DNA of 39,648 nt from Bacteroidales bacterium (GTDB lineage Bacteria > Bacteroidota > Bacteroidia > Bacteroidales > JAADJA01). A model generated the notes under the pieces. It saw nothing but the letters and a program-made list of their open reading frames with translations, did not search any database and was not told the origin of the DNA. The first letter of the stretch is position 1, and the number at the start of each line of letters is the position of its first letter. The stretch spans positions 1 through 39,648 of the forward strand of contig JAGVPB010000028.1 of the NCBI GenBank assembly GCA_020052415.1. The letters are read 5' to 3'. Made by a program: the position numbers and the translations under genes. This document shows positions 4,681 to 33,114 of this stretch, piece by piece.

Positions 4681-4777
4681 CTGAATGAAGAAAGATAAAT
4701 TTTCCTTAAACTCTTTCCAAATAAGGCCTTCAGCAAAAATAATATTATGATTTATGATAAAATATTTAATAAAATTT

Positions 4778-4785
4778 TACTTTTG
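4778..4785 (+). promoter_or_regulatory. Bacteroidota -7 box for serC operon
   Basis: TACTTTTG is a full match to TAnnTTTG, 56 nt upstream of the serC ATG at 4842. No good TTG box is visible at the expected -33 distance, so the call rests on the -7 box and position. Confidence 0.45.
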
Positions 4786-4841
4786 CTTCCCTTTCAAACT
4801 TAGATGATTGATAATTAATGTAATTTAAAATATCTGCAATT

Positions 4842-5912: not shown

Positions 5913-5962
5913 CTTTCGATGGAATTCTACAATGAAAATTATCAATTTAAATACCTACAAAA

Positions 5963-6883
5963 ATGATCAAAGTACTTGTTGCAACAGACAAACCGTTTGC
6001 GCCTGTTGCTGTCGAAGGCATCAGAAAAACCATTGAAGGCGCCGGTTACGAACTAAAACTTCTTGAAAAATACATTTCGCAGTCAGATTTCGTCAAAGCT
6101 GTCGAAGACGTTGACGCCGTGATCATCCGCAGCGACAAAGCCACCAAAGAGGTAATTGAAGCGGGTAAGAAACTGAAGATAATTGTCAGGGCAGGAGCCG
6201 GATATGATAATATTGACCTTGCTGCTGCCACTGCCCGTAAGGTAGTTGCTATGAACACTCCGGGTCAGAATTCAAATGCAGTTGCGGAACTCGCAATGGG
6301 AATGATGGTTTATATGGCCCGGAATCTTTTTAACGGCTCATCAGGTACGGAACTCAAAGGAAAGAAAATAGGCATCCATGCTTTTGGAAATGTAGGCCAG
6401 TTGGTCGGCCAGCTTGCCAAAGGATTTGGAATGGATGTTTATGCCTGTGATCCTTTTATTCCATCGGATCAGATCGAAAAACACGGGGTTAAAGCATTGA
6501 ATAGCCCTGAAGAACTATATGCAAAGTGCCAGTACATTTCATTGCACATACCTGCAAATGAAAAAACCAAAAAATCCATAAATTATGAGCTGCTTTCAAA
6601 GATGCCGAGAGGGGCAACTCTTGTAAATACTGCAAGAAAAGAAGTGATAGATGAAGAAGGATTGATGAAGATTTTCGCTGAGAGAAGCGATTTTAAGTAC
6701 ATTTCAGATATAGAACCTGATTGCAAAAATGACCTGGTAACGGGTTATGCCGGAAGGTTTTTCTTTACCCCGAAAAAAATGGGGGCCCAGACTGCAGAAG
6801 CCAATATTAATGCAGGTATTGCAGCCGCCAGACAAATCGTTGATTTTTTTGAAAAAGGAGACACTACTTTTAAAGTGAATTGA
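5963..6883 (+). CDS. serA: D-3-phosphoglycerate dehydrogenase (short form)
   Basis: Catalyses the NAD-dependent oxidation of 3-phosphoglycerate to 3-phosphohydroxypyruvate, the first step of serine synthesis. At 306 residues it is the short form without a C-terminal ACT regulatory domain, so feedback inhibition by serine through ACT is not expected. The Rossmann motif HAFGNVG (139-145) and the active-site arginine in NTARKE (Arg225) are visible. Oddly, the region that normally supplies the catalytic His (PHxGA) reads PKKMGAQT (270-277), so lysines occupy the His position. The first Gly of GxGxxG is also Ala. The gene follows serC by 50 bp, which supports the assignment. I believe the Lys form is shared by Bacteroidota relatives, but could not check. 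Confidence 0.92.
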   Translation: MIKVLVATDKPFAPVAVEGIRKTIEGAGYELKLLEKYISQSDFVKAVEDVDAVIIRSDKATKEVIEAGKKLKIIVRAGAGYDNIDLAAATARKVVAMNTPGQNSNAVAELAMGMMVYMARNLFNGSSGTELKGKKIGIHAFGNVGQLVGQLAKGFGMDVYACDPFIPSDQIEKHGVKALNSPEELYAKCQYISLHIPANEKTKKSINYELLSKMPRGATLVNTARKEVIDEEGLMKIFAERSDFKYISDIEPDCKNDLVTGYAGRFFFTPKKMGAQTAEANINAGIAAARQIVDFFEKGDTTFKVN

Positions 6884-6988
6884 TTTTTAAAATTCACTGT
6901 TGACAGCAACTGACTTACAGTTCGGTTGAGAGGTTTACTGTCTGTAATACTAAAATATAGAGGTTATAAATAATAAAAATTGAATATT

Positions 6989-7456
6989 ATGGAGCAAGAG
7001 TCTACCAAGAGCGTATCTTTTTTCAGGTTTGAAGATTTGAGAATTTATCACAAAGCCCTTGATTATATTGATTGGGTTTACAGCACTACCAGCTTATTTC
7101 CCGAAGATCCCGCAAGGGGTCTCGCCGGTAAATTTCTGGCAACGGCACAGGCAATAGCATTTTATATTGCCGAAGGTTCTTCCAGGAACAAAAGCCAGTT
7201 CATCTATTATCTCAAACTGGCTAAAAGCGCCGTGAGAGAATGCGTCGTACTGACATCTGTTCTCGAAAAACAGGGTTCGATCACACCGGCCTCGGTCGAA
7301 GCATCGAGAGGGCAACTGGTTGAAATGACTAAAATGATCGGAGCGTTAATCGGGTCGTTGCAAAAAGCGGGTCAAAGAAATGGCAGTAAAAATAATGACC
7401 ATGAGGTTGAAGATGAACTCGAATTTGTGGATCAGATTAATGCCAGAAGATATTGA
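6989..7456 (+). CDS. Four-helix-bundle protein (S23 / 23S rRNA intervening-sequence type)
   Basis: A small helical protein of the family first known from 23S rRNA intervening sequences and also free-standing in Bacteroidota. The FRFEDLRIYHKAL block after the N-terminus and the AEGSSRNKSQFIYYLKLAKSAVRE segment in the middle are family hallmarks; the C-terminus is charged and variable. The ATG at 6989 (155 residues) is preferred over a TTG three codons upstream at 6980. It lies between serA and the DUF1015 gene, 25 bp before the latter, so it is probably co-transcribed. Members bind nucleic acid or act as helical adaptors (the Avd protein of diversity-generating retroelements is related), but no reverse transcriptase or rRNA is nearby. 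Function unknown. Confidence 0.85.
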   Translation: MEQESTKSVSFFRFEDLRIYHKALDYIDWVYSTTSLFPEDPARGLAGKFLATAQAIAFYIAEGSSRNKSQFIYYLKLAKSAVRECVVLTSVLEKQGSITPASVEASRGQLVEMTKMIGALIGSLQKAGQRNGSKNNDHEVEDELEFVDQINARRY

Positions 7457-9996: not shown

Positions 9997-10938
9997 ATGG
10001 GAAGAGTTTATTTTCTAAGAGCAAAGAATGGTTACCGGGCTGTGCGTGGCGAGGTAATAAGTCGTGTACAGAACGCACTGAAAGCGGCAGGATCGGATCC
10101 AAAAAACATTGATGGCATATACGGCGGCGACACCGAAAGTGCATTAAGGGATTTTCAGCATAAACGAAACCTGGAAGTCAACGGTATATTAAGTGAACAA
10201 ATTTGGACTACCCTTACCGGGGAACCCGTTCCTGACTTACTCAGCCGCTGCCTGCAGTTAACCGGAGACTTTGAAGGACACGGATTTCAAAAAGTTGCAG
10301 GCAATTTCGATGGTGCTGGTTTGACATGGGGAATAATAGGATTTACTTTACAACATGGTGAGGTTCAGAATATCCTGAAGACGATTCAGCAAAAGAACCC
10401 TTCCCTGCTTGATCAGGCATTTGGTAACTTAAGGGATAATCTCCGTTCGATGCTCAACCTGAGCCTGAATGATCAGATTAAATGGGCGGATAGCATTTCT
10501 GTCGGTTCAAATAAGTATCAGGTAGCTCCATTGTGGGAACAAGCCTTTAAAGTGCTGGGATCTTTTGCTGAAGTAAAAGCGATACAAATGGAACGCGTTA
10601 AAAAATATTGGGATGTTGCATTGAAAGATGCTAAGCGTTTCGGCCTGAAATCGGAAATGGGAATGGCACTTTGTTTTGATATCGCTGTTCAAAACGGAGG
10701 TATAGACACGGATGTTGAAGAACGCCGGATTATGATGGGCCGAAATACCACACCTCCACCCTCTGAGCGCGATTTATGTATTCTGATAGCAAATACGGTT
10801 GCAGAAAACAGCCGGCCGCAATACATAGAAGACGTGCGTAAACGCAAACTTACCATAGCAACAGGTGATGGCATTGTTCATGGAGTCCGGTATTCGACTG
10901 AAGACTGGGGTATTGGAGAATATCCCTGGCAAACCTAA
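9997..10938 (+). CDS. Peptidoglycan-binding domain plus lysozyme/chitosanase-like domain protein
   Basis: A 313-residue protein. Residues about 15-75 form a PG_binding_1 domain (RVQNALKAAG, then IDGIYGGDTESALRDFQ and NGILSEQIW). Residues about 80-300 resemble the GH46 chitosanase / lysozyme-like fold: DFEGHGF with candidate acid Glu93, NFDGAGLTWGIIGFTLQHG (103-121) with Asp105, AVQNGG (230-235), and IATGDGIVHG near the C-terminus. It probably cleaves or binds cell-wall glycan. There is no signal peptide or membrane segment, as in phage endolysins and injected or lysis-released effectors. No phage structural gene is nearby. The ATG at 9997 gives a domain start at the expected position. The catalytic assignment is tentative. 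Confidence 0.7.
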   Translation: MGRVYFLRAKNGYRAVRGEVISRVQNALKAAGSDPKNIDGIYGGDTESALRDFQHKRNLEVNGILSEQIWTTLTGEPVPDLLSRCLQLTGDFEGHGFQKVAGNFDGAGLTWGIIGFTLQHGEVQNILKTIQQKNPSLLDQAFGNLRDNLRSMLNLSLNDQIKWADSISVGSNKYQVAPLWEQAFKVLGSFAEVKAIQMERVKKYWDVALKDAKRFGLKSEMGMALCFDIAVQNGGIDTDVEERRIMMGRNTTPPPSERDLCILIANTVAENSRPQYIEDVRKRKLTIATGDGIVHGVRYSTEDWGIGEYPWQT

Positions 10939-19746: not shown

Positions 19747-21015
19747 ATGAAAGACTCAAAAAATCAAACAGCGGTTGCGGGTAATAAAGGCGACCGCGTA
19801 CGTTCGGATTGCCATGCAGAGCTTGAGATCACCGGTAGCAGCGGTTTGCAGATTTCAATTGACAGTAAGGTAAAAGTGATGTATGGAAATGCCATTCATA
19901 AACAGATTGTAGAAATCCTTGATTTTTTTGGCATTTCGCACGCGGTTTTGCACTTAACCGATTCAGGCGCACTGCCATTTGTAATTGCCGCGCGTGTTGA
20001 AGCAGTCATTAAAAAACTGGTTGAAACGGAAAAGGAATTCCTTCCCGAACTTATACCTGAGAATAAATATCAGACAAATAAAGACAGGTTTCGTTTTTCA
20101 AGGCTTTATCTGCCCGGAAATACTCCAAACCTGATGATAAATGCCGGTATTCATAAACCGGATGGGATCATTCTTGACCTTGAAGATGCAGTTGCACCGG
20201 ATAAGAAATTTGAAGCTGGCTTCGTAGTTCGAAATGCACTCAGACAGATTGATTTTTACGGTGCCGAACGCATGGTCAGGATAAACCAGGTACCCCGCGG
20301 ACTATATGACCTGGATATTATTGTTCCATCGAATGTTAATCTGATTCTGATTCCGAAATGCGAAGGTAAAGATCATGTCATAAAAGTGAATGAACGAATT
20401 GAAAAGATTAAAAAGGAAAAAGGAATTAATGGTGATATCTGGCTGATGCCGATCATCGAAAGTGCGCTGGGCGTAATGAGAGCCTTTGAAATAGCAACCG
20501 CAGCCGATAACATCACATCCATCGCCATCGGATTGGAGGATTACACAGCTGATCTTGGAACGCGGAGAACACAGGAAGGTACAGAATCGTTTTTTGCCCG
20601 ATCCATGGTAGTAAATGCTGCACGTGCTGCCGGAATCCAACCAATAGATTCGGTATTTTCAGACATTTCGGATATGGAAGCATTAAAGCAAAATGTATTG
20701 GCATCCAAAGCCCTTGGATTTGATGGAATGGGTTGTATTCACCCCCGACAGATCAGAGTGATTCATGAAAATTTTGCACCGGATGACGCTGAAATAGAAA
20801 AGGCAAAAAAGATTGTCAGTGCTTTCATTGAAGCCACAGAGAAAGGGCTTGGCGTAGTTTCGCTGGGTTCGAAAATGATTGATGCGCCGGTGGTGAAAAG
20901 GGCGGAAAAAACTGTGAACCTTGCGATTTCACTTGGGAAATTGAGTAAAGAATGGAGAACGGAAATGATGAAAGAAGTTCCAAGAGAAAAGATAAAAGTA
21001 AAAAGTAAAAAGTAA
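19747..21015 (+). CDS. Citrate lyase acyl-carrier (CitD) - beta subunit (CitE) fusion
   Basis: Two citrate lyase subunits in one 422-residue chain. Residues 1-92 match the CitD acyl carrier (AVAGNKGD, then YGNAIHKQIVEILDFF and DSGALPFVIAARVEAVI). Ser20 in VRSDC aligns with the serine that carries the phosphoribosyl-dephospho-CoA group. Residues about 113-400 are CitE, the citryl-ACP lyase TIM barrel, with RLYLPGN, the metal-binding LDLEDAV (143-149) and GIHPRQI-like GCIHPRQI. The reaction is citryl-ACP to acetyl-ACP plus oxaloacetate. CitF follows after 34 bp. The C-terminal tail KIKVKSKK is encoded by a 7-nt tandem repeat (see 20991). A relative acting on another acid cannot be excluded. Confidence 0.85.
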   Translation: MKDSKNQTAVAGNKGDRVRSDCHAELEITGSSGLQISIDSKVKVMYGNAIHKQIVEILDFFGISHAVLHLTDSGALPFVIAARVEAVIKKLVETEKEFLPELIPENKYQTNKDRFRFSRLYLPGNTPNLMINAGIHKPDGIILDLEDAVAPDKKFEAGFVVRNALRQIDFYGAERMVRINQVPRGLYDLDIIVPSNVNLILIPKCEGKDHVIKVNERIEKIKKEKGINGDIWLMPIIESALGVMRAFEIATAADNITSIAIGLEDYTADLGTRRTQEGTESFFARSMVVNAARAAGIQPIDSVFSDISDMEALKQNVLASKALGFDGMGCIHPRQIRVIHENFAPDDAEIEKAKKIVSAFIEATEKGLGVVSLGSKMIDAPVVKRAEKTVNLAISLGKLSKEWRTEMMKEVPREKIKVKSKK

Positions 21016-22859: not shown

Positions 22860-23651
22860 TTAAAGTTCCCTTATCTTAATATTCCTGAACCAAACATCGT
22901 CGCCGTGATCCTGCAGGCCAATGTAGCCTTCCTGTGCAGTATTCACAAAATCATCATAATCCTTAAACTTGCTGTTTCCAACCATCTTCTTCCAGTCGTC
23001 GGTCCAGAGGTGGTATTCCAATACATTCTGCCCGTTCATCCAGTGGACCACCGTTCCTTTATAAACCATGATCTTGATATGGTTCCACTCACCGGCGGGC
23101 TTTACAGCTTCAAATTTTCCCGGAATCAAATCATAGAGTGAACCGGCGGCGCGATTGCCATTCACGCCCAATTTGGCATCGGGATGTTTGGCGTTGTCCA
23201 ATATCTGCATTTCAGGTGCCGATTTCCAGATCGGTTGATCCGGTTTCTCCTGTGCCAAATAGAATATACCGCTGTTACCTCCTTCAGATACTTTCCATTC
23301 GAGAGATAACTCAAAATTGCCATATTTTTTTACTGTGATAATATCACCTCCGCCACCGGCTTCACCTTTCCCGGATCCAAGAATATGGAGGGTTCCTTCT
23401 TCTGCAACCCAACCCTTTGATGGAAATGAATCGAGCCCATAACCTCGCCAGTTACCTGTGGACTGTCCGTCGAAAAGCAACGCCCAGCCTTCATCAAATT
23501 CAGCCTGGGTTAAAGTGTTTGGCCCGGCTTCCTGAACAACAGCCTCATCCTTTTGTTCAAGTTTTTCTTTATTCTGCTCCCCTCGTGGTGCACATGAAAC
23601 GACGAACATGGCCACTAAAGCCACCATTAATAATTTAATAATAGTCCTCAT
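22860..23651 (-). CDS. DUF1080 lipoprotein (3-keto-glycoside hydrolase/lyase-type)
   Basis: A 263-residue lipoprotein with lipobox VVSC (Cys20), hence periplasmic or surface-facing. Residues about 50-263 form a single DUF1080 domain, a concanavalin-like beta-sandwich: GWALLFDGQSTGNWRGYG, GGGGDIITVKKYGNFELSLEWKVSEGGNSGIFY, and YIGLQDHGDDVWFRNIKIREL. Characterised relatives in Bacteroides act on 3-keto-glycosides after a sugar dehydrogenase has oxidised C3. It ends the minus-strand sugar cluster and lies 154 bp downstream of a Gfo/Idh/MocA oxidoreductase gene. A second, tandem-domain DUF1080 gene opens the cluster at 32176. The actual substrate is not known. Confidence 0.88.
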   Translation of the reverse strand: MRTIIKLLMVALVAMFVVSCAPRGEQNKEKLEQKDEAVVQEAGPNTLTQAEFDEGWALLFDGQSTGNWRGYGLDSFPSKGWVAEEGTLHILGSGKGEAGGGGDIITVKKYGNFELSLEWKVSEGGNSGIFYLAQEKPDQPIWKSAPEMQILDNAKHPDAKLGVNGNRAAGSLYDLIPGKFEAVKPAGEWNHIKIMVYKGTVVHWMNGQNVLEYHLWTDDWKKMVGNSKFKDYDDFVNTAQEGYIGLQDHGDDVWFRNIKIREL

Positions 23652-23762
23652 AATAATAATAAGTATTTAACATTTGTCGTGAATAATAGATATTTGTTTT
23701 ATCAAAACTAAAATTTGAATTTTTTTTTCCTCCCGCTTAATCCCACACCAAATGAGGAAATT

Positions 23763-23801
23763 AAAAGCAACCTTAAACTTTCAAAAGCAACCTTAAACTT
23801 T
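23763..23801. repeat. Direct tandem duplication of a 20-bp word
   Basis: AAAAGCAACCTTAAACTTT occurs twice in tandem (starts at 23763 and 23783) in the gap between the oxidoreductase stop and the DUF1080 gene. It is a perfect recent-looking duplication. Confidence 0.75.
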
Positions 23802-23805
23802 GAAC

Positions 23806-25290
23806 TTATAATTTCCAACCTTCTCTGTAGGTATGTTTTATATATTCTTCAGCTGCAGGTAAAGCCTTGATTGTAGCATACTGGGTATCAAAATGCGGAT
23901 GGCCTTCAATGACATTAAACTTATCGGTGGTCACAATTCTGATCTCATCCGTTTCCGAAATATTTGTGATCCTCATATTCTCACCATCCCACATCAGTTT
24001 ACGTTTCAGGTCCTGCAATCTTACCGCAAGGTTACCCATTACTACCACTTCATTTAAAGGCCCCGAATATTCAAAGTTTGAACTTGTCTGAACACGATTT
24101 TCCTGGCTTTCCTTACAGGCTCTGATCCAGTCCAGTTCGTGACCGCCTTCCATAGCTTTTTCAATTCTTCTAAGGGTTGGTTCGGGACGTTTATATTCAT
24201 TGTGAAGAGCATCCGGAAGTAAAATCGGATTACGGCCATAACAACCTGTTATCAATTTTCCTTTTTTCCCGACAAACAGTACTCCGCCGCTCTGATCGCC
24301 CATGATCTGGCCATCCTTTAATTCCTGGGGCCTTGGAGGGAGTAGCCCACCATCATACCAGGTCAGTTTTACAGGTGGAAGATTTATCTTTCCGAATTTA
24401 CCCCTGTCGGGAAATTCATAATGTACAATTTCGGAATGTGGTGCGCTCTCAGTATTGACCTGGGTTGAACTTGCATAAATGCAGTTTGGATGTCCAAGCT
24501 TCAATGCCCAAAATGCCGGATCTACAATGTGGCAGGCCATGTCGCCCAGCGCTCCCGTTCCAAAATCCCACCATGCCCGCCAATTCCAGGGTGTGTATGA
24601 AGGATGATAAGGCCGCATTTGAGCCGGACCAATAAACAAATCCCAATCGAGTGTTGAAGGAACCGGAACTATTTCCGAAGGTCTTTCAAGTCCCTGCGGC
24701 CAAATAGGCCGGTTGGTCCATGCATGAACTTCAGTTATTTCCCCTATCGCCCCATCCCAAATCCATTCACATGTCTGGCGAATGCCATCGCCCGAATTTC
24801 CCTGGTTTCCCATTTGTGTAGCTACCTTGTATTCTGCTGCAAGTTTGGTGAGTTGTCGCGATTCAAAAACGGTGTGAGTCAGTGGTTTTTGTGTATAAAC
24901 ATGTTTCCCCATTCTTATTGCGGCAGCAGTAGCAATTGCATGAGTATGGTCAGGAGTAGCGATGATGACAGCATCAATGGATTTACCCATTTCGTCATAC
25001 ATCTTCCTATAATCCATGAATTTCTTTGCTCCCGGATATTTTTCAAAAGTACCGGCTGCATAAGCCCAATCAACATCACACAAGGCCACGATATTTTCGC
25101 CGGAACAATTGCTTACATTGGTAGCACCTACTCCCCCGACTCCGATGCCCGCTATATTAAGCTTATCGCTGGGCATCTTGTGACCAAAACCGCTGATTAC
25201 ATAACTGGGTAAAATAGTAAATCCTGCGGCTGCAGTTGCCGTACTTCCTATAAACTGCCTCCTGTTCATGGTGCTTTTATTTTTTTTCAT
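23806..25290 (-). CDS. Exported Gfo/Idh/MocA family oxidoreductase (Tat signal)
   Basis: A 494-residue NAD(P)-dependent sugar dehydrogenase-type protein with a twin-arginine signal (NRRQFIGSTATAAAGF), so it is folded with its cofactor before export. The Rossmann motif is GIGVGGVGATN (48-58). The family's EKP motif reads QKP in YTQKPLTHTVFESRQL, an altered residue compared with the canonical Glu. The C-terminal substrate domain includes DFGTGALGDMACHIVDPAFWAL. A second possible start at 25269 would begin directly at MNRRQF. It is probably a glycoside or sugar oxidoreductase of the locus. The IS200-like array separates it from the next gene upstream. Confidence 0.9.
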   Translation of the reverse strand: MKKNKSTMNRRQFIGSTATAAAGFTILPSYVISGFGHKMPSDKLNIAGIGVGGVGATNVSNCSGENIVALCDVDWAYAAGTFEKYPGAKKFMDYRKMYDEMGKSIDAVIIATPDHTHAIATAAAIRMGKHVYTQKPLTHTVFESRQLTKLAAEYKVATQMGNQGNSGDGIRQTCEWIWDGAIGEITEVHAWTNRPIWPQGLERPSEIVPVPSTLDWDLFIGPAQMRPYHPSYTPWNWRAWWDFGTGALGDMACHIVDPAFWALKLGHPNCIYASSTQVNTESAPHSEIVHYEFPDRGKFGKINLPPVKLTWYDGGLLPPRPQELKDGQIMGDQSGGVLFVGKKGKLITGCYGRNPILLPDALHNEYKRPEPTLRRIEKAMEGGHELDWIRACKESQENRVQTSSNFEYSGPLNEVVVMGNLAVRLQDLKRKLMWDGENMRITNISETDEIRIVTTDKFNVIEGHPHFDTQYATIKALPAAEEYIKHTYREGWKL

Positions 25291-25395
25291 GGTTGATTTT
25301 ATTAAAAAGTTATTAATTGAATTTATTTATAGCAGTTGAATTATCATTTGATCATTTCCCAGTTCCATTGTAAATTGTAAAAAATAACCTTAATA

Positions 25396-25439
25396 GCAAA
25401 GACAATATGGACATAAATTTGTGAAAATGTACCTGCCAT
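25396..25439 (-). pseudogene. Truncated 5' end of a second IS200-like transposase
   Basis: The start codon (25437-25439) and about the first 14 codons of tnpA are duplicated here, then the homology stops. Together with the following spacer, 25396-25531 matches 26089-26224 at about 134 of 136 positions. It is therefore a remnant of another transposase copy rather than chance similarity. The gap from 25291 to 25395 shows no other feature. Confidence 0.75.
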
Positions 25440-25452
25440 TTGTTAGGTATTA

Positions 25453-25667
25453 TGTCACCCCTTTGGGGTTTATATCAATTTTTCAATTTCATTTGCTACA
25501 ATCATGTCATTCCTTCGGAATTCTTATAAATTCTTATGAACGGAACAATTCCTGAGAATTATTCGACCTACCGGAGCTATCTTTGTACGCTCCAGAACAA
25601 TCCCGAAGGGATGATATTATTCTAGAAAATCCTAAACCCTGATAATCCGAACCCCGAAGTGGTGATA
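25453..25667. repeat. REP/BIME-like unit, copy 1
   Basis: A 215-bp unit bounded by TGTCACCCCTTTGGGGTT on the left and a partly decayed inverse on the right (ACCCCGAAGTGGTGATA). It contains four small palindromes with TTC or GAA loops. Copies 2 and 3 are at 26146 and 27619. This copy differs from the other two in its middle third. It lies downstream of the intact tnpA on the minus strand. Confidence 0.85.
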
Positions 25668-25670
25668 TTG

Positions 25671-26132
25671 TCATTCTATCCATTTGAATAAATATTTTTC
25701 ATCATATTCAACTTCAAATTTTTTCAAAAATTCAAGATATTCCTCGCGAAATGTTTTCTTTTTGTGATGTACCTCCTGTTTTAAAATATAATTGTAAACC
25801 GTCCCGACTTGTGATTGTGCATATGAAAATGAACCATATCCCTCCTGCCACGAAAATTTTCCTCTCACCAATTTTTTCTCATTAATAAAATTAGAAGAAT
25901 TGTTTTTAATGTCTCTCACCAAATCAGATACTGCCTTTGAGGGTTTTAATCCAACGAAAGCATGAATATGGTCCGCAACACCATTTACGATTATTGGTTT
26001 TTGATCCTTGCCTTTAATTATTCCCGCAATGTATTTAAATACTTCATTTCTCCATTCTTTCTCAAGAAGATTTGTTTTGCCATTTACGGCAAAAACAATA
26101 TGGACATAAATTTGTGAAAATGTACCTGCCAT
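25671..26132 (-). CDS. tnpA: IS200-like / RAYT-type Y1 transposase (TnpA)
   Basis: A 153-residue single-strand-DNA transposase of the Y1 HUH family. The HUH motif is His55-Ile-His57 in ADHIHAFVGL. The candidate catalytic tyrosine is Tyr115 in VYNYILKQ, after the KFSWQEGYGSFSYA block typical of the family. The gene is intact. It is flanked on both sides by palindromic REP-like units, and no tnpB is present, which fits IS200 or a REP-associated tyrosine transposase (RAYT). It lies between two sugar oxidoreductase genes of the same orientation. Decayed tnpA pieces lie at both outer ends of the array, so it is the surviving member of a tandem series. Confidence 0.92.
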   Translation of the reverse strand: MAGTFSQIYVHIVFAVNGKTNLLEKEWRNEVFKYIAGIIKGKDQKPIIVNGVADHIHAFVGLKPSKAVSDLVRDIKNNSSNFINEKKLVRGKFSWQEGYGSFSYAQSQVGTVYNYILKQEVHHKKKTFREEYLEFLKKFEVEYDEKYLFKWIE

Positions 26133-26145
26133 TTGTTAAGTATTA

Positions 26146-26359
26146 TGTCACCCCTTTGGGGTTTATATCAATTTTTCAATTTCATTTGCTACAATCATGT
26201 CATTCCTTCGGAATTCTTATAAATGCTACTGAACGAATAAATCCCGGGACCTTTTCTACCAAATAGAATTACTATTTTCTTTTCCGCCATAATCCCGAAG
26301 GGATGATATTATTGTAGAAAATCCTAAACCCTGATAATCAGAACCCCGAAGGGGTGACA
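26146..26359. repeat. REP/BIME-like unit, copy 2
   Basis: A 214-bp unit with the best-preserved ends: TGTCACCCCTTTGGGGTT on the left and AACCCCGAAGGGGTGACA on the right, a terminal inverted repeat. Internal palindromes are ATTCC-TTC-GGAAT and ATCCC-GAA-GGGAT. Its left 79 bp is nearly identical to copy 1, whereas its middle agrees better with copy 3. It lies directly upstream of the intact tnpA start and may carry its promoter. Confidence 0.88.
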
Positions 26360-26362
26360 TTG

Positions 26363-26551
26363 TCATTCTATCCATTTGAACTAATATTCTTATCAAGTTT
26401 CCCCTCAAAATTATTCAAATATTCCAGAATTGTTCATGAAATGTATTCTTTTAAGTTCTATTTCCTGATTTAAAATATCCTAAACCAACTCAACCTCAGA
26501 ATTTGTATTGAATATGCATATTGCCTTTCCCGCTACAAAAAGTTTTCTAAA
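26363..26551 (-). pseudogene. Decayed 3' part of an IS200-like transposase
   Basis: From the stop codon (26363-26365) onward this stretch aligns by eye with the 3' part of the intact tnpA starting at 25671: 18 identical bases, then patchy matches including CCTGATTTAAAATAT against CCTGTTTTAAAATAT, and ATATGCATA-like and CCCGCTACAAAAAGTTTTCT-like segments. It has frame-breaking changes and is cut off at the downstream end of the Gfo/Idh/MocA gene. Confidence 0.75.
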
Positions 26552-27604
26552 TTACAATTTTACTTTGATTCGTTTGCTTAATTTGTTGCTTTCAAAAGCA
26601 AGCTCGATGATCCTGATGACATTTCTTGCTTCTAACGGTTTTACTGCCATCTCAGCTTTTCCGGTGAGGACGTCATAAACATTTCTGTAAAATTCCTGAT
26701 AACATCCTGCTTCTGTTTCGACAGAGCCATGAATATTGAGGTCCTGATAGTCAATAGTTATCATGCCCCACTGATCCGGGCTTTCATTTCCCCAATTTTT
26801 TGAACCAGGCAATCGTCCTTCCCTCAGATCTTTTTCCTGTGGATCAATGCCGTATTTTATATACGAACCTAAAATACCGTGAAGAATATACCTTGGTCCG
26901 GGATCGCGAACTAACATCCCGGCTGTAAGAATAACCCTGAGACATTTGAAATAGAGAATTATTCTGAAATAGTCATCTACCACGCTACCGTTACGCTGGT
27001 TGGTAATTTTTGCTTCCAGGCCGTTGGGAATTCCAAATAATTGCAGTGCCTGGTCAATCAGGTGTGAACCGAGATCATACAATACTCCCCCACCCTCATT
27101 TATATGTTCCCTCCAAACATTCCGCGGTGGCTCGGGTCTGAACCTGTCGAAATGAGCCTCATACTCCTTTAATTCACCCAGGGCACCACTTTTCAAAAGT
27201 TGGCGGATGGTCAGGAAATCACCATCCCAGCGACGGTTCTGGTAAACAAAAATCCGGAGATTAAGTTTTTCAGAAAGCTGTATAAGATCATCGGCTTCAG
27301 TTGAAGTAACAGTGAACGGTTTTTCAACAACAACATGTTTACCGGCCAGAAGGCTATCTTTTGCCATTTGATAATGCAGTGAATTTGGCGTACATATCAC
27401 CATGAGTTCAATTGCCGGATCTTTCAAAACATCTATGTAACTTTTTACAATGGTTGCCTCTGGATATAACTTACTTGATTCCTTACTTGTTCGCTCAACG
27501 ATTTGGCTGATATTGAATCCCGGATGCAGATGCAGGAATGGAGCATGGAAAACTCTTCCGGATAAGCCGAATCCAATAATTCCGGTATTTATTATTTTTT
27601 TCAT
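26552..27604 (-). CDS. Cytosolic Gfo/Idh/MocA family oxidoreductase
   Basis: A 350-residue NAD(P)-dependent oxidoreductase without signal peptide, so cytosolic, in contrast to its two exported relatives in this locus. The Rossmann motif is GIIGFGLSGRVFHAPFL (9-25). The EKP motif is intact in VVEKPFTVTS. The C-terminal domain has EGGGVLYDLGSHLIDQALQLFG, with a His typical of the active site. The overall pattern resembles scyllo-inositol or sugar dehydrogenases of the YdgJ/IolW type. It probably oxidises or reduces a sugar released by the exported enzymes. It is flanked on both sides by REP-like units, which separate it from its operon neighbours. Confidence 0.9.
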   Translation of the reverse strand: MKKIINTGIIGFGLSGRVFHAPFLHLHPGFNISQIVERTSKESSKLYPEATIVKSYIDVLKDPAIELMVICTPNSLHYQMAKDSLLAGKHVVVEKPFTVTSTEADDLIQLSEKLNLRIFVYQNRRWDGDFLTIRQLLKSGALGELKEYEAHFDRFRPEPPRNVWREHINEGGGVLYDLGSHLIDQALQLFGIPNGLEAKITNQRNGSVVDDYFRIILYFKCLRVILTAGMLVRDPGPRYILHGILGSYIKYGIDPQEKDLREGRLPGSKNWGNESPDQWGMITIDYQDLNIHGSVETEAGCYQEFYRNVYDVLTGKAEMAVKPLEARNVIRIIELAFESNKLSKRIKVKL

Positions 27605-27618
27605 TGTTTTCAGTATTA

Positions 27619-27831
27619 TGTCACCCCTTCGGGGTTATATCAATTTCTAAATTTCAATTTCTATAATCATGTCATTCCTTCGGAATTCTTTTAAATACTC
27701 CTGAACGGGATAAATCCCGGACTTTTTCTACCAATTAGAATTATTATTTTTTTTCCGCCATAATCCTGAAGGGATGATATTATTGTAGAAAAACCATATT
27801 TCCTAATAATCTGAACCCTGAAAGGGTGACA
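27619..27831. repeat. REP/BIME-like unit, copy 3 (solo)
   Basis: A 213-bp unit with ends TGTCACCCCTTCGGGGTT and AACCCTGAAAGGGTGACA and the same inner palindromes. It includes a CGGGAT-AA-ATCCCG stem that is less clear in the other copies. There is no tnpA next to it. It lies 14 bp upstream of the start of the 26552-27604 gene. The rest of this gap (27832-27912) shows nothing recognisable. Confidence 0.87.
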
Positions 27832-27912
27832 TTTAAAATTATCGTAATCATTTTTTTAACCATTTTACTACTGATCGCTGTTTACCTTCAGAGTTAAACT
27901 TCAATTTCAGTT

Positions 27913-28767
27913 TTATATACCTGAAAGTAATTTAAACAGATAATTATAACTAATGGTAATACTTTCTACCGGAGCGATTTTAAAGGACTCCTGTTCAACA
28001 AAAAAATATTTCATTCCCGATTTCTCTTTCATCCGGAATAATTCCGGGAAATTGATCTTTCCCGTGCCTATCTCTGTACTTTCCCTGCCTTCACCGGCTT
28101 CCATATCCTTAACATGCCACACTTCAAATCTCCCGGGATATTTTTCGAAATAATCAAACGGATCATACCCCGCATAAACCATCCAATACAAATCAATCTG
28201 AACAAAACACAATTCAGGATCGGTTCTTTCGAGCAAGATATCGAATGGTATTTGATTATCAATCTTTTCAAATTCAAAAGCATGATTATGGTACCCGAAT
28301 TTTATTCCCGCATTTTTACATTTACTTCCGATAATATTAAATTCATCGGCAAGTTTTTTATAATCATCCGCATTTTGCCGCTTTTCTTTTGCTACTGAGG
28401 GTAATACAAGGTATTTCATTTCGGCTTTTGCCGTATCTGCTATGACTTCATCAGCATTTATAAGATTTACGCGGCTGTGCGTGCTCAATGGCTGTATTCC
28501 GTTTTCTTTACAAATAATAGCATAATCTCCCGGGTTCAAACCATAAAATTTTCTGTTTTGGTAACCGGCAGCTTCAATTGCACTGTAACCGATTTTTGAC
28601 AATGCTTTCAATGTACCGATAAAATCACTATTCACTAAATCCCTGATAGTATATAATTGTATCCCGATTGTCCTGGCTATCGGGGAAGCCAATAATTTCC
28701 CTGGCAAAATGAGCCCGGCGGCAACGGTGGCACTCAGTCCCTGTAAAAATGTTCTCCGGTCAATCAT
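27913..28767 (-). CDS. Exported sugar phosphate isomerase/epimerase-like TIM-barrel protein
   Basis: A 284-residue protein of the xylose-isomerase-like TIM-barrel (AP endonuclease 2) family with a Tat-type signal (DRRTFLQGLSATVAAG). Metal-site elements are visible: YHNHAFEFE near 168-176, the QIDLYWM segment near 197 and HVKDMEAGEGRESTEIGTG near 228-246. Such proteins isomerise, epimerise or eliminate keto-sugars. Related TIM-barrel proteins occur with DUF1080 and Gfo/Idh/MocA genes in Bacteroides keto-glycoside loci. It lies 23 bp downstream of the 526-residue oxidoreductase gene, so the two are co-transcribed. The exact reaction is unknown. Confidence 0.88.
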   Translation of the reverse strand: MIDRRTFLQGLSATVAAGLILPGKLLASPIARTIGIQLYTIRDLVNSDFIGTLKALSKIGYSAIEAAGYQNRKFYGLNPGDYAIICKENGIQPLSTHSRVNLINADEVIADTAKAEMKYLVLPSVAKEKRQNADDYKKLADEFNIIGSKCKNAGIKFGYHNHAFEFEKIDNQIPFDILLERTDPELCFVQIDLYWMVYAGYDPFDYFEKYPGRFEVWHVKDMEAGEGRESTEIGTGKINFPELFRMKEKSGMKYFFVEQESFKIAPVESITISYNYLFKLLSGI

Positions 28768-28790
28768 TTTTGTTATTATTTACCGGCTTT

Positions 28791-30371
28791 TCAAACAATT
28801 TCCTTTTTTTCCTGATCCCAATAGACTTTCCTGTTTTCCAGATAAGCAATGGTTCCCATGTGTGATGTCATAGCTTCTTCAAAACCAACATCAATATTAC
28901 ACATCGGAATACCACCGGCCCGGATGCAGTCGAGCCAGTCTTTGATATGAAGATGCGATGTATCAATTCTTTTTCCGCCGCGATAGGTATAGAGCAATCC
29001 CCTGCCTGCGAAATATTGTTCAGTGGGAGATGTGATGGCATCCACGTGCTTAGCCCCGGGTGTAAACGAATATATTGGCATCGAAGGGTCAATTATACCC
29101 TTTTCTATTTTTTCACGATATTTTGTCGAACCCTGATCTGCAAAAAGCTTCAAGTCGTTGTCAACTTCTAGGTACGCATCGTGGCCCATGATCACCTTTC
29201 CCCTCATCTTGTTACTTGCGAGAGAAGCACTATAGATCAGGGTTAAATTACGGTCGGGATATTCAAAAACCTGTTGGAGAACATCCGGCACTGTTCGCCC
29301 GTCTTTATAAAAGTATATTCCCCCTGAAGAAACTGCCGAATGTGGAATGCCTAATCCCAGGATTTGGTTCATAGCATCATATTCGTGGGTGAACAGATCG
29401 CCCGACAAACCGGTACTATAATCCCACCAGCACCTCCATCTGAAGAACCGTTCAAGGCTGAATTCATGATAAGGCGCGGGCCCTATAAACTGATCCCAGT
29501 CAATATTATATTTCCCTGCTTCTTCATCTATTTTATAAACCCAGGCCCCTTCGGGATCATTCCGGTTTGTCGTTACCTCGACAAGGTTAACCGCACCGAG
29601 CAGTCCTTTCTCAAAAACTTCCTTTGCCTTGATATAGCTTTCGGTCTGACGGTTCTGATGCCCAAGCTGAAATACGATGTTATTTTCTTTCACTTCTTTC
29701 ACTACTTCATAAGTCTCAGCCACCGTCCATGTCATCGGCTTTTCGCAATAAACATGCTTCCCGGCTCTGGCTGCTTCAATGGTTATGGTTCCGTGCCAGT
29801 GGTCGGGAGTTGCAATGATCACCGCATCAATATCATCCGAAGCGAGGAGTTCTTTATAGGTCCTGTACCTTTTTGGTTTTTGACCCATCGTACCTTCCGA
29901 ACCGTTGCGGTTGTTATTGGCGCTTGCTCGTAGCCCTTTATCAGCATTCAGGTCATAAATATCACAAAGGCCATTAACAATTACATTCAGATCCGGCTGT
30001 TCCATGAATTCAGCCAATCGGGTATCGGTTTTATCCTTTTTATTACCTTCTGTCCAGTCGTCAATCAGCTCAGGACGAAGAAATCCTAAGGCTTTAAGCA
30101 AGGACCTGCCTCTGCCCCCGGTTCCTATGATCCCCAACCTGATCTTCTTGTCCATGGGCACGCTTCGGTTTAAAACCGGAATATCAGTACCAAGATTAAG
30201 TTCATGTCTGATCTCACCTTTAAGGATTTTATCAAATTTCTGCTTTCTGTACCAACCATATAAGAAGGCACCAAGAACAGGAACCGTTGCCAGTCCGCGG
30301 ATAACCTCCCTGCGACTTAATTTCTTTTTATTTCCTAAAGGTTTTTCTTCCGGATTATTTTTGGTTTCCAT
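28791..30371 (-). CDS. Exported Gfo/Idh/MocA family oxidoreductase (long form)
   Basis: A 526-residue oxidoreductase, longer than the usual 350-450. The N-terminal SRREVIRGLATVPVLGAFLYG combines a Tat-like twin arginine with a hydrophobic helix, so it is exported and possibly membrane-held. The Rossmann motif is GIIGTGGRGRSLL near 80-92. EKP is intact in VYCEKPMTWTVAETYEVV. The substrate domain includes DYSTGLSGDLFTHEYDAMNQILGLG. Its start overlaps the end of the DoxX gene by 17 bp, which implies tight coupling and suggests that reducing equivalents could pass to the membrane. It probably oxidises a glycoside in the periplasm; the substrate is not known. Confidence 0.9.
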   Translation of the reverse strand: METKNNPEEKPLGNKKKLSRREVIRGLATVPVLGAFLYGWYRKQKFDKILKGEIRHELNLGTDIPVLNRSVPMDKKIRLGIIGTGGRGRSLLKALGFLRPELIDDWTEGNKKDKTDTRLAEFMEQPDLNVIVNGLCDIYDLNADKGLRASANNNRNGSEGTMGQKPKRYRTYKELLASDDIDAVIIATPDHWHGTITIEAARAGKHVYCEKPMTWTVAETYEVVKEVKENNIVFQLGHQNRQTESYIKAKEVFEKGLLGAVNLVEVTTNRNDPEGAWVYKIDEEAGKYNIDWDQFIGPAPYHEFSLERFFRWRCWWDYSTGLSGDLFTHEYDAMNQILGLGIPHSAVSSGGIYFYKDGRTVPDVLQQVFEYPDRNLTLIYSASLASNKMRGKVIMGHDAYLEVDNDLKLFADQGSTKYREKIEKGIIDPSMPIYSFTPGAKHVDAITSPTEQYFAGRGLLYTYRGGKRIDTSHLHIKDWLDCIRAGGIPMCNIDVGFEEAMTSHMGTIAYLENRKVYWDQEKKEIV

Positions 30372-30864
30372 TTTCTGTATTAAATTTCCTGTTTGAAAAA
30401 ATTAACCTGTCTATTCCTATTTTTCTGTGTGCTGGGAAGATAAATAATACCATCATTGCGACTATTTCTATAAAATTTTTATTTATGAAAAGGTAGCTGC
30501 CCTCCATAGGCAACTCATACTTTAATCCGACAAAAGGCGGATGGGAAAGGTAATAGAAAGCAAGCATTACTATTCCAGCGGGCAGAGTAATACGGTTGAA
30601 TGCGCCAAGGATCAAACCAAGTCCGATTGTGATCAATCCCCAGATGTTCATGAAATCCACAACACTAAGTGTGTCAGGATTAGCTGCGAGTCTGTAAAAA
30701 AAGCCTTTCATAAATCCTGCCGAATCGAGCAGGTAACCCACACTTGACCAGTTGGGATTCACAGCTTTTACAAGGCCTTCGTAAAGAAAATGCCAGCCGA
30801 TAATGACTCTTAGAAATGTGAGCCAGAACACCTGAGACGCAGTATAGCTTGTTCCTTTATTCAT
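30355..30864 (-). CDS. DoxX-family membrane protein
   Basis: A 169-residue integral membrane protein with four hydrophobic helices. DoxX-type blocks are visible: FLRVIIGWHFLYEGLVKAVNP near 14-34, NIWGLITIGLGLILGAFNRITLPAGIVMLAFYYLSHPP in the middle, and NKNFIEIVAMMVLFIFP near 128-144. DoxX relatives are linked to quinone-dependent electron transfer. Here the gene overlaps the following exported oxidoreductase gene by 17 bp and follows the tandem DUF1080 gene by 31 bp. A role in re-oxidising the oxidoreductase is an attractive inference but is unproven. Confidence 0.85.
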   Translation of the reverse strand: MNKGTSYTASQVFWLTFLRVIIGWHFLYEGLVKAVNPNWSSVGYLLDSAGFMKGFFYRLAANPDTLSVVDFMNIWGLITIGLGLILGAFNRITLPAGIVMLAFYYLSHPPFVGLKYELPMEGSYLFINKNFIEIVAMMVLFIFPAHRKIGIDRLIFSNRKFNTENGNQK

Positions 30865-30895
30865 TTCAATTTATTATTTTAAACTTGTCTTCCAT

Positions 30896-32176
30896 TTAGA
30901 GTTCTTTTATAAAAATATTCCTCCACTTCACTTTAATCCCTCCTCCGTCATGGATTTGCACCGCGATGACTCCGGTTGCCTGCCCGATCTTTCCATCAGT
31001 GATATCGGTCATCATTTCGTTATTAAGCCAGGTCATCACACGGTCACCTTCAACTTTTATAACCATGTCATTCCATTCACCCATTTTTAAAATATCCTCT
31101 TTATCCTCCGGTATCTGGTAGAGCCACCCTCTGCCATAAGATTCATAAATTCCGCCTGTGTCTTTTCCCGGAGGGGCAACCTCTGCCTGCCAACCGGTTA
31201 TTTTTGTACCCTCGATTGCTGAATGGAAAAATACACCGCTGTTTCCTTCCGATTCCTGTTTGAACTGCAATCTCAGAATAAAATTTTTATAAATTCTCTC
31301 AGTTGCAAGGTAACCATACTGCTTATCCGCGCCGCTTTCACAAACCAATTCCCCGTTTTCAACATACCACTTTTCAGTCCCATGAATTTTCCAGCCCGTA
31401 AGATCTGATTCATTAAAAAGCTGGATTCCGGTATCAGTTAAATCCCTTATCCTGACATTCCTGAATTTTGCGATGCTTCCATGATCCTGAAGTGCAATAT
31501 GACCTTTGCAGGCAAGTCCGTAACCCGGATAATCCTTCCATTTTGATTTCTGAACGCGATCATACCAATCCTCAGTCCATAGATCATAAGCAACAACCAG
31601 GCTTCCATTGAGCCAATGTTCAACGTGGCAATTTTTAACGATTATCCTGCTCTCGTTAAATTCACCAACAGCTTTAAGGGATTTATTTTCTGGGTCATGC
31701 ATCGCGTAGTTGGCGCCGGTTTTTTGCCACTCTTCAAGCTTTTCAGGAAATCCTGCATCATCAATCAGCTGATATTCTGGACCGGTCGCATAAACAGCGG
31801 GATAATCATTTTCGAGGACATGATAAAAGATGCCGCTATTGCCACCTTTTGATATAGCCCATTCTACGATCAGTTCGAAATCCGCGAATTGCTCTTCAGT
31901 AATAATGTCACCGCCCATGTTTCCACCTTTCCCCTGAACTATAAGGCTTCCGTTTTCAACATACCAGTCTTCATTCACACCGTTACCTTTAAAATTTCTC
32001 CAGCCATTGGTAGTTTTGCCATCGAACAGAATTTTCCAGCCTTCTTCATCCTGTGGCTGCAACACAGAGCCCGGCGTTTCATGACAAGAACTTTTTCGCG
32101 GTTCCGTTTTGAAAGAGAATCCAGCAATCGCCAGGATCAGAAAAAAAACAGAATAATATAAGAAACTTAATTTCAT
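30896..32176 (-). CDS. Secreted protein with two tandem DUF1080 domains
   Basis: A 426-residue exported protein with signal-like residues 1-22 (hydrophobic core, no clear lipobox) and two DUF1080 beta-sandwich domains. Domain 1 spans about 42-232 (GWKILFDGKTTNGWRNFKG, GGDIITEEQFADFELIVEWAISKGGNSGIFY, HIALQDHGSIAKFRNVRIRDL). Domain 2 spans about 236-426 (GIQLFNESDLTGWKIHG, ILRLQFKQESEGNSGVFFHS, VIAVQIHDGGGIKVKWRNIFIKEL). Each keeps the GNSG core; they are diverged, so this is an old duplication. It is the first gene of the minus-strand sugar locus, 31 bp upstream of DoxX. A 3-keto-glycoside hydrolase/lyase role is inferred from the family. Confidence 0.88.
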   Translation of the reverse strand: MKLSFLYYSVFFLILAIAGFSFKTEPRKSSCHETPGSVLQPQDEEGWKILFDGKTTNGWRNFKGNGVNEDWYVENGSLIVQGKGGNMGGDIITEEQFADFELIVEWAISKGGNSGIFYHVLENDYPAVYATGPEYQLIDDAGFPEKLEEWQKTGANYAMHDPENKSLKAVGEFNESRIIVKNCHVEHWLNGSLVVAYDLWTEDWYDRVQKSKWKDYPGYGLACKGHIALQDHGSIAKFRNVRIRDLTDTGIQLFNESDLTGWKIHGTEKWYVENGELVCESGADKQYGYLATERIYKNFILRLQFKQESEGNSGVFFHSAIEGTKITGWQAEVAPPGKDTGGIYESYGRGWLYQIPEDKEDILKMGEWNDMVIKVEGDRVMTWLNNEMMTDITDGKIGQATGVIAVQIHDGGGIKVKWRNIFIKEL

Positions 32177-32379: not shown

Positions 32380-33114
32380 ATGAAAAGAGCTGGTTTGTTT
32401 TCAGTATTATTCTTAGGTTGTACAATTGCTTTTTCGCAGAGCCTAAGTCTTGTCTATGAAGGAAATTCAATACCCGGTAACCATCAACTTATCATTCAGG
32501 GACCGGCGACAGGTGATGAAATGGTAGTGGGGGTTGATGTTACAAACAATGCATCCGTTGCTCTTACAGTATTGGTAAAAAAAGTAGAAAACTATCTGAT
32601 TACGGGTTCCGTGAATACATTTTGCTGGGCAGGGCTTTGCTATGCTCCGAATGTTTATGTTTCGCCGCTTTCGACGATCATTCCTGCCGGAGGAACAACC
32701 GCACCCGGAGAATTTTCAGGACATTATAACCCGAATGCCAATCCAGGGCAATCCTCCATTTCTTACGTTTTCTTTGATCAGAATAATGTTAATGATTCAG
32801 TGATGGTGACGATTTTATTCACTACCGTTACTACCGGATTAACTTCACATATTTCCGAAAATTTCAATCTTTCGAACCCTTATCCAAATCCGGCAAACAA
32901 TTTCACCAGTTTTGATTATCAATTATCTGAACCGGCGGAATCAAGCCTTAAGGTTTATTCATTGATCGGATCGCTCGTGAAGGAAATTGATATTTCGTCT
33001 GTTGAAGGAACCCTTCGGATTGAAACCAGAGATTTTGAAGAAGGATTTTATTTCTATGTTTTATCCGCCGGCAATAACGAAATTAAATCAGGCCGGTTCA
33101 TCGTAAAGCATTAA
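32380..33114 (+). CDS. Small T9SS-secreted protein (type A sorting domain)
   Basis: A 244-residue secreted protein. Residues 1-20 form a signal peptide ending in AFSQ. Residues about 25-155 form a beta-rich domain with a likely disulfide in FCWAGLCY (Cys82, Cys87). Residues about 163-244 form the type A C-terminal sorting domain of the type IX secretion system: NPYPNPANN, LKVYSLIGSLVKEI, then GFYFYVLSAG and GRFIVKH. The C-terminal domain targets the protein across the outer membrane and is removed there. The function of the passenger domain is unknown. It stands alone, followed 149 bp later by a two-component system on the same strand. Confidence 0.92.
   Translation: MKRAGLFSVLFLGCTIAFSQSLSLVYEGNSIPGNHQLIIQGPATGDEMVVGVDVTNNASVALTVLVKKVENYLITGSVNTFCWAGLCYAPNVYVSPLSTIIPAGGTTAPGEFSGHYNPNANPGQSSISYVFFDQNNVNDSVMVTILFTTVTTGLTSHISENFNLSNPYPNPANNFTSFDYQLSEPAESSLKVYSLIGSLVKEIDISSVEGTLRIETRDFEEGFYFYVLSAGNNEIKSGRFIVKH

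Follow-up and report, generated by a model that had tools for sequence, protein, structure and literature searches.

A DoxX-type membrane protein paired with a Gfo/Idh/MocA oxidoreductase in a predicted 3-keto-glycoside gene cluster of a Bacteroidales bacterium

The stretch of DNA analyzed here (39,648 nucleotides, contig JAGVPB010000028.1 of the Bacteroidales bacterium assembly GCA_020052415.1; hereafter the window) carries, between positions 22,860 and 32,176, a gene cluster predicted to serve the oxidative degradation of glycosides. Two neighboring genes of this cluster encode a small DoxX/DoxD-like membrane protein, referred to as DoxX, and GFO6, an oxidoreductase of the Gfo/Idh/MocA family that begins with a probable membrane anchor. 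These two genes occur side by side in genome after genome, and the anchor of GFO6 has homologs in proteins in which it is fused directly to DoxX. Our best explanation for the locus as a whole, offered tentatively, is that a DoxX-GFO6 membrane oxidoreductase pair, linked to quinone, has been added to a glycoside cluster of the BT2157/BT2158 kind.

DoxX and GFO6 are neighbors across genomes

Short motifs of the 526-residue GFO6 were searched against the genomes of 84,980 species (a single genome per species), and the best 80 of the 91 stretches encoding them were kept. Close GFO6 homologs are present in 58 of these loci (L012-L069); the other 22 (L070-L091) contain distant homologs and were left out of the counts. 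A DoxX gene lies immediately upstream of GFO6 in all 55 of the close loci that possess an upstream gene (the sequences of L050, L063, and L064 begin inside GFO6). Among the nine distant homologs listed of the 22, no upstream DoxX was recognized by phmmer, which could miss a diverged DoxX.

The two genes also share their phyletic distribution. In 395 genomes sampled evenly across the phylum (Bacteroidota, as judged by the named relatives), GFO6 was detected at E 1e-100 in nine, including the genome of the window, and DoxX was detected at E 1e-20 in the same nine, where the coordinates of the two genes are side by side in every case; the remaining 386 genomes have neither gene at those cut-offs, and a profile search at 1e-8 added no further DoxX genome. 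In a set of 60 relatives, the genomes with DoxX and those with GFO6 differ only by G002, where GFO6 runs off the end of a contig (L108), and G038, which has only a fused version of DoxX (see below).

The association holds when DoxX is the starting point. GFO6 adjoins DoxX on the same strand in 38/38 stand-alone loci (L150-L187), which comprise the 30 best matches of an order-level DoxX search, our own window included, and 8 others from the phylum search. Twelve weaker stand-alone DoxX loci include nine with an adjacent GFO6, two that are cut by contig ends (L188 and L195), and one without it (L194). The gene order is swapped with adjacency kept in L190 (569-2627) and L198 (1312-3393). This type of DoxX is present in 87/393 genomes of the order-level search, and cultivated hosts of the pair include Prolixibacter denitrificans, P. 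bellariivorans, and Seramator thermalis.

A preliminary description of this DNA called the cluster genes partly overlapping and took a 17-bp overlap between DoxX and GFO6 (30355-30371) as a hint that DoxX is an electron-transfer partner. The overlap is present, and it is the only one between genes of the cluster, but it is not conserved: the gap between DoxX and GFO6 has a median of +11 bp across 55 relatives, and the genes overlap in nine of them (start codons were chosen mechanically). We therefore dropped the overlap as evidence of coupling in favor of adjacency, which ties the two genes together much more strongly. Across 52 loci, the divergence of DoxX parallels that of GFO6 (r = 0.83); in the 26 loci matched for comparison with controls, this correlation (0.73) is only mildly above those of the controls, DoxX with the BT_2158-type dehydrogenase of the cluster (0.58) and GFO6 with the same dehydrogenase (0.63). 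We consider it very probable that DoxX and GFO6 form a physical unit.

GFO6 is a predicted NAD-type dehydrogenase with a probable membrane anchor

GFO6 consists of an N-terminal twin-arginine anchor (residues 20-48) and a catalytic domain (about residues 75-526). R20, R21, P31, and G34 of the anchor are found in every row of an alignment of 38 GFO6 sequences. The twin arginine is followed by a hydrophobic stretch and then by positively charged residues, with no clear cleavage site by eye, and the N-terminus is probably a membrane anchor of the twin-arginine translocation (Tat) type.

The catalytic domain has the Rossmann motif, the lysine of the EKP motif, and the downstream D...H that define the Gfo/Idh/MocA family, in addition to the Pfam match given in Table 1. 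G80, G83, and G85 of the Rossmann motif, D137, K211 of the EKP motif, D325, and H329 are invariant in 38/38 sequences. D137 closes the second strand, a place where enzymes that use nicotinamide adenine dinucleotide (NAD) usually have an acidic residue. The predicted structure has a predicted local distance difference test score (pLDDT) of 79, with a helix of low confidence at residues 20-58. The closest folds to its catalytic domain, with VIA Z scores from 29.6 to 32.3, include those of DgpA1 (Z 32.3), YjhC, 8qc8, DgpA, levoglucosan dehydrogenase, and glucose-fructose oxidoreductase. The structure 8tdf, titled Alistipes glucoside-3-dehydrogenase AL3, ranks seventh in Foldseek and lies outside the best 50 VIA rows.

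We considered whether GFO6 might carry a covalent flavin and ruled this out: the ApbE flavinylation-type motif (D..[ST]G[AS][ST]) occurs in 0/38 GFO6 sequences. A motif of this type in a gene beside GFO6 in L146 belongs to a peroxidase-family protein (PF00141, 238 bits) and was taken as chance.

The same membrane module is found in fused proteins

Not all DoxX matches in the search of the 60 relatives were stand-alone copies; 13 fell within open frames of 487-565 residues. Twelve of these were fetched (L122-L133; the match G030:C180 was not), and a frame of 679 residues in G014, which contains TAG, was counted as stand-alone. All 12 fused proteins have the same layout, namely DoxX, a twin arginine, a hydrophobic stretch, and then an extracytoplasmic domain. 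This last domain yielded no Pfam match in four proteins, no significant NCBIfam match in four, and no significant PDB match in the one compared.

A profile built from GFO6 residues 17-48 found 12/12 fused proteins with scores of 16-45 bits and E-values down to 8e-13. The best other non-GFO6 open reading frame in a set of 3,360, which included Tat-signal TIM-barrel proteins, reached only 6.5 bits (E 1.1). Because the profile is this specific, the anchors of GFO6 and of the fused proteins are homologous. Thus, as judged from these sequences, the same DoxX with a fifth helix is found either split, as with GFO6, or fused, and it bears unrelated domains. A further fused protein (L203) has a DUF362 match (26.8 vs. 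24 bits) on the same chassis, and its arginine pair is interrupted.

After the anchor, 13/13 fused proteins contain the pattern D..[ST]G[AS][ST], and 10/13 contain its strict form, D..[ST]GAT. In the set of 3,360 frames, from which L203 is absent, nine of the 13 frames with the strict pattern, and 12 of the 27 with the relaxed pattern, are fused proteins. According to its describers, in the portion of the source available to us, the ApbE flavinylation motif is not stringent on its own (PMC8238504). ApbE is encoded in 7/7 genomes searched, six of which are hosts of fused proteins, yet also in 7/14 control genomes. The motif in the fused relatives can be regarded as a hint of redox use of the shared module. 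The main text of the flavinylation survey contains 0 occurrences of DoxX and 0 of DUF362 (PMC8238504).

These relationships suggest a broader reading, possible but rather doubtful in our judgment, of a modular chassis in Bacteroidota, in which the four-helix DoxX with a twin-arginine fifth helix would carry different periplasmic redox domains, each connected to quinone; the 3-keto pathway of the window would be made respiratory in this way. The cargo of such a chassis would be an NAD-type Gfo/Idh/MocA dehydrogenase as a separate protein or, in fused form, either an unclassified domain with the flavinylation-type motif or a DUF362 domain.

Conserved residues and predicted topology of DoxX

The DoxX protein passes the DoxD model PF04173 (cut-off of 22.7 bits) and lies just below the cut-off of the DoxX model PF07681 (23.6 bits); it fails the model of the DoxD subunit of thiosulfate:quinone oxidoreductase, NF041179 (19.7 vs. 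300 bits). R19, E29, G30, K33, W39, G81, G87, and P109 are invariant in 63 partner DoxX sequences (L051, below 150 bits and with a run of unknown bases, was excluded from the alignment) and in the 12 fused relatives. H108 is found in 61/63 partners and in 0/12 fused proteins, which have Y, N, or S at this position.

The predicted structure of DoxX (pLDDT 72) has long helices at residues 9-35, 63-86, 93-106, and 129-142, which we read as the membrane helices, as well as shorter helices and a polar helix at 151-165. Since the anchor of the fused proteins must cross the membrane outward after DoxX, the C-terminus of DoxX would be cytoplasmic and the loops 36-62 and 107-128 periplasmic. Placed on the model in this orientation, the conserved residues E29, K33, W39, N73, P109, E121, K129, and E133 would lie mostly in the periplasmic half, facing GFO6, as would H108; R19 would lie deeper.

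The surrounding cluster matches a known type of glycoside pathway

The inventory in the preliminary description is correct for its seven named protein genes: all are intact frames on the minus strand, and they encode two DUF1080 proteins (one with tandem domains), three Gfo/Idh/MocA proteins, a TIM barrel, and DoxX (Table 1). Its assignment of the locus to the 3-keto-glycoside type known from the B. thetaiotaomicron BT2157/BT2158 locus is also supported. The product of 23806-25290 exceeds the cut-off (750 bits) of NF058561, BT_2158_fam "glycoside 3-dehydrogenase", over profile positions 1-483 of 487, and matches 8tdf with 590 bits. GFO6 fails the same model (126 vs. 750 bits), and the BT_2159 model is reached by none of the three Gfo/Idh/MocA proteins (24.5, 43, and 18.6 bits vs. 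650). GFOcyt, the third member of this family in the cluster, scores exactly at the cut-off of its NCBIfam model and matches 3fhl (328 bits) and YvaA of B. subtilis (284 bits); inspection by eye revealed no export signal.

Both DUF1080 proteins exceed the PF06439 cut-off of 26.8 bits. The product of 22860-23651 matches 4hxc (251 bits) and 8tda (242 bits), the tandem protein has solved relatives with scores of up to 192 bits, and the TIM-barrel protein matches 8tcd, 8tcs, and 8tct with 163 to 158 bits (8tcd, 163). We take these solved relatives of the DUF1080 and TIM-barrel proteins to be structures from one pathway study (BT2157/BT2158, Alistipes AL-type). By these matches, the cluster is predicted to serve oxidative glycoside degradation of the BT2157/BT2158 kind, and the sugar pathway itself is already known.

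BT2157, a DUF1080 protein, is named 3-ketotrehalose hydrolase in the part of the source at hand (PMC9007349). The preliminary description assigned an isomerization step to the TIM barrel, which related pathways do not support. There, as far as the available text of the two sources goes, proteins annotated as "sugar phosphate isomerase" carry out beta-elimination (LgdB1 and AtOGE) or hydration (LgdB2, and AtHYD on preliminary evidence) (PMC7676230, PMC10628242). By analogy, the TIM barrel is better read as a candidate elimination or hydration enzyme.

Twin arginines are present in the products of 23806-25290, 27913-28767, and 28791-30371, a lipobox-like VVSC in that of 22860-23651, and an N-terminal hydrophobic stretch in that of 30896-32176; these proteins are predicted to be exported. 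In the whole genome (4.67 Mb, 97.4% complete), a search at E 0.001 recovered DUF1080 only from the cluster, which also holds three of the eight Gfo/Idh/MocA matches of the genome.

Neighbor genes in the 58 loci with close GFO6 homologs, many of which are cut by contig ends, were assigned by phmmer with score thresholds. The numbers of loci with a recognized gene were 42 for DUF1080, 31 for the BT_2158 type, 30 for the TIM barrel, and 19 for GFOcyt; the order DoxX-GFO6-TIM barrel-GFOcyt-BT_2158 type was found in 16/58. In L033, a zinc carboxypeptidase gene (M14, 887 residues; 4769-7432) sits between the DUF1080 and DoxX genes. Genes encoding 872-899 residues lie directly upstream of DoxX in L035, L037, L042, L045, L047, L048, L049, L055, L059, and L062; the M14 identity comes from L033 only.

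Proposed mechanism and its alternatives

We propose that DoxX and the twin-arginine anchor of GFO6 together make up a single membrane module, in which the anchor would hold the NAD-type Gfo/Idh/MocA domain in the periplasm, above the conserved periplasmic side of DoxX. GFO6 probably moves a hydride from a hydroxyl of a sugar or glycoside (C3 in this locus) to an NAD that it binds tightly; DoxX probably enables membrane quinone to re-oxidize the bound NADH. The DUF1080 and TIM-barrel proteins would then cleave and hydrate the 3-keto-glycoside, and either the BT_2158-type enzyme or, once the keto-sugar has been taken up, GFOcyt would reduce it. A precedent for the bound cofactor is D3dgpA, which, in the available text of the source, was purified with nearly equimolar NAD(H) and used 3-oxo-glucose or its methyl glycoside as the acceptor that restores NAD+ (PMC11239390). 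DoxX would open this redox loop, closed in DgpA by the reduction of 3-oxo-glucose, to the respiratory chain.

Re-oxidation by quinone is the most likely role for DoxX because it is a steady membrane partner, its invariant residues are partly charged, and the setting of the chassis elsewhere is of a redox type. For electron exchange with quinone taken by itself, we see about an even chance, and much the same holds for the C3 position of a glycoside as the substrate of GFO6 in this locus.

Several observations weigh against this proposal. The best Foldseek match of the predicted DoxX structure is not significant (E 0.43), and its VIA Z scores to GGCX (7.8), VKOR-like (6.5), and DsbB with ubiquinone (4.0) are suggestive but stay below the mark of 13 for helical bundles. 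Its top VIA row is the receptor-assembly factor NACHO/TMEM35A (Z 10.3), as would suit the main rival, in which DoxX is an assembly or docking subunit without a redox role and GFO6 either works in a closed loop like DgpA or is an acceptor-free NAD-dependent glycosidase. GFO6 is itself as near in fold to 8qc8 (Z 31.7), a glycosidase of this last type that needs no outside acceptor, as it is to DgpA, and DgpA does regenerate its bound NAD+ with 3-oxo-glucose, according to the accessible part of the source (PMC11239390). In addition, the fused proteins L131 and L203 have weak, below-cut-off matches to the DoxX-family model HvfX, a maturation protein by name, and to MauE. On the other hand, a pure anchor would be redundant because GFO6 already has its own, and the invariant charges at R19, E29, and K33 suggest chemistry or ligand binding. 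DoxX also keeps its partner in nearly every case; the exception, L194, has a DoxX of the same type (2755-3267) with no GFO6 within the 6.5 kb fetched and counts against the main proposal. On balance, we consider a purely structural DoxX unlikely, although it is the most serious competitor of quinone-linked re-oxidation.

The absence of a flavinylation motif from GFO6, a further point against electron transfer to quinone, is expected if NAD is the carrier. A respiratory role also finds no help in the distribution of terminal oxidases: COX1 (over the cut-off) or CydA was counted by hand in 19/21 genomes with GFO6 and in 29/39 without it among the relatives (GFO6 presence at E <1e-90), and one genome with GFO6, G054, has neither oxidase type. 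As a correlate of GFO6, terminal oxidases do not discriminate, and we did not use them as support.

The remaining difficulties concern the substrate. No TIM-barrel, BT_2158-type, or DUF1080 homolog was recognized in 9/58 loci, five of which are shorter than 8 kb, and no 3-keto gene was recognized in 7/8 distant genomes (44-48% identity) within the 16 kb fetched from each. When nine neighbors from the eight distant loci were compared with Pfam, none matched DUF1080, TIM-barrel, or Gfo/Idh/MocA families. Absences based on phmmer are provisional because it failed to recognize a PF01261 TIM barrel in L032, one of the nine loci, and a partial BT_2158-type gene at the contig end of L036. The lack of recognized 3-keto genes near the pair in distant genomes indicates that the two genes are the unit and that they are often, but not necessarily, set in the sugar cluster; the substrate of the pair need not be the C3 of a glycoside.

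This opens a second alternative, in which the pair is a quinone-linked dehydrogenase for an unrelated substrate (perhaps a sugar of the cell envelope or a free one) and just happens to lie in the cluster in one branch of Bacteroidales. The loci just described speak for it, whereas the DUF1080 and BT_2158-type counts and the recurrent five-gene order do not; moreover, in the eighth distant locus, L142, a BT_2158-type gene adjoins the pair, and the fused DoxX relative in L128 adjoins a DUF1080 gene. We judge an unrelated substrate to be improbable, somewhat more so than a structural DoxX. On the other side of the pair in L142, just upstream, lies a gene (5500-6624) for a glucose/sorbosone dehydrogenase family protein (PF07995, 433 bits).

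Finally, electrons could flow in reverse, with DoxX passing them from quinol to GFO6, which would reduce periplasmic 3-keto-sugars. Gfo/Idh/MocA reactions are reversible, and a pathway with a BT_2158-type oxidase also requires a reductase step. However, from standard potentials the reduction of NAD+ by quinol is uphill without a driving force, and the closed loop and GFOcyt already provide for reduction. Reverse flow seems to us very improbable.

Relation to known systems

The locus shares its BT_2158-type dehydrogenase and its DUF1080 and TIM-barrel proteins, which have solved relatives, with the BT2157/BT2158-Alistipes AL pathway; it differs in having no BT_2159-model protein and in the added DoxX-GFO6 pair. 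The Zymomonas glucose-fructose oxidoreductase resembles GFO6 in fold (Z 29.6); it is a soluble, Tat-exported enzyme with a tight cofactor, without DoxX or a membrane anchor. In the thiosulfate:quinone oxidoreductase DoxD/DoxA, a DoxD-type membrane protein is partnered with an extracytoplasmic redox subunit. Here the DoxD model is passed and the specific model of that enzyme is not, and the partner is a dehydrogenase of the sugar type.

DgpA and D3dgpA have the fold of GFO6 (Z 31.6 and 32.3) and lead one to expect a bound NAD as the redox carrier. GFO6 differs from them in its twin-arginine membrane anchor and its DoxX neighbor, whereas D3dgpA, in the text available, recycles NAD+ with 3-oxo-glucose (PMC11239390). 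The lactose 3-dehydrogenase LacABC of Caulobacter also provides a membrane-bound periplasmic C3 oxidation, proposed, in the part of the source available, to feed a DUF1080 hydrolase (PMC9007349). LacABC has three components and is a dehydrogenase of another type; in the window the corresponding elements are a Gfo/Idh/MocA protein and DoxX.

Among the papers listed in searches of the open-access literature, none describes DoxX paired with a Gfo/Idh/MocA enzyme. What is new here is the DoxX-paired, membrane-anchored dehydrogenase; the chassis that carries it may represent a new kind altogether. To our knowledge, few functions have been assigned to DoxX-type proteins; a partner that holds in both directions, together with natural fusions, gives DoxX a concrete, testable role. 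Exported NAD-type sugar oxidases are described, as far as the available text goes, as disposing of their electrons by reducing another metabolite, e.g., 3-oxo-glucose (PMC11239390). If DoxX feeds the quinone pool, extracytoplasmic oxidation of glycosides would be an entry into respiration with neither flavin nor cytochrome in the enzyme.

Other features of the locus

Table 1. Features of the cluster, with window coordinates and the profile matches on which the assignments rest
Feature	Position	Strand	Evidence
Tandem-DUF1080 protein (two 3-keto-disaccharide hydrolase domains), predicted exported, first gene of the cluster	30896..32176	-	PF06439, two stretches, 277 bits total
DoxX/DoxD-like membrane protein, 169 residues, GFO6 partner	30355..30864	-	PF04173, 26.2 bits; PF07681, 22.6 bits
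GFO6, membrane-anchored, probably Tat-exported Gfo/Idh/MocA oxidoreductase, 526 residues	28791..30371	-	PF01408, 65 bits
Xylose-isomerase-like TIM barrel, Tat-type signal, candidate 3-keto-glycal hydratase or eliminase	27913..28767	-	PF01261, 59 bits
GFOcyt, Gfo/Idh/MocA protein without export signal, candidate 3-keto-sugar reductase	26552..27604	-	NF008607 PRK11579, 330 bits
IS200/IS605-type Y1 transposase	25671..26132	-	PF01797, 81 bits; NF033573, 60 bits (cut-off 55)
Repeat copies around the transposase	25396..27833	.	Repeat families D1-D4, inverted pairs I1-I9
BT_2158-family glycoside 3-dehydrogenase, Tat-type signal	23806..25290	-	NF058561, 829.1 bits
DUF1080 lipoprotein (3-keto-disaccharide hydrolase family)	22860..23651	-	PF06439, 176 bits

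The preliminary description did not mention that the cluster is split by an IS200-type transposase gene and repeats (25396-27833). Repeat copies lie at 25396-25552, 26089-26245, and 27561-27717, accompanied by shorter palindromic units and by a second, truncated copy of the 5' end of the transposase gene. As a result, a distance of 1.26 kb separates GFOcyt from the BT_2158-type gene. The operon interrupted here by the transposase is compact in relatives, e.g., L013; no transposase homolog was recognized in the 58 related loci L012-L069.

The genes of the cluster include no SusC- or SusD-like member, as had been stated. In the genome, SusD has two matches, both on contig C55 and outside the cluster; no search aimed at SusC was made. 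Next to the cluster, a divergent gene (32380-33114) encodes a protein with a type IX secretion sorting domain, which has homologs in 4/58 loci (L013, L014, L015, and L020). Distant from the cluster, the product of 9997-10938 combines a peptidoglycan-binding domain with a GH46-like match (35 bits vs. 27), the sole match named for a glycoside hydrolase besides DUF1080 among the 17 window proteins scanned with Pfam. The gene at 19747-21015 encodes a CitD-like citrate lyase acyl-carrier domain fused to a CitE-like beta subunit and is followed by the gene for CitF.

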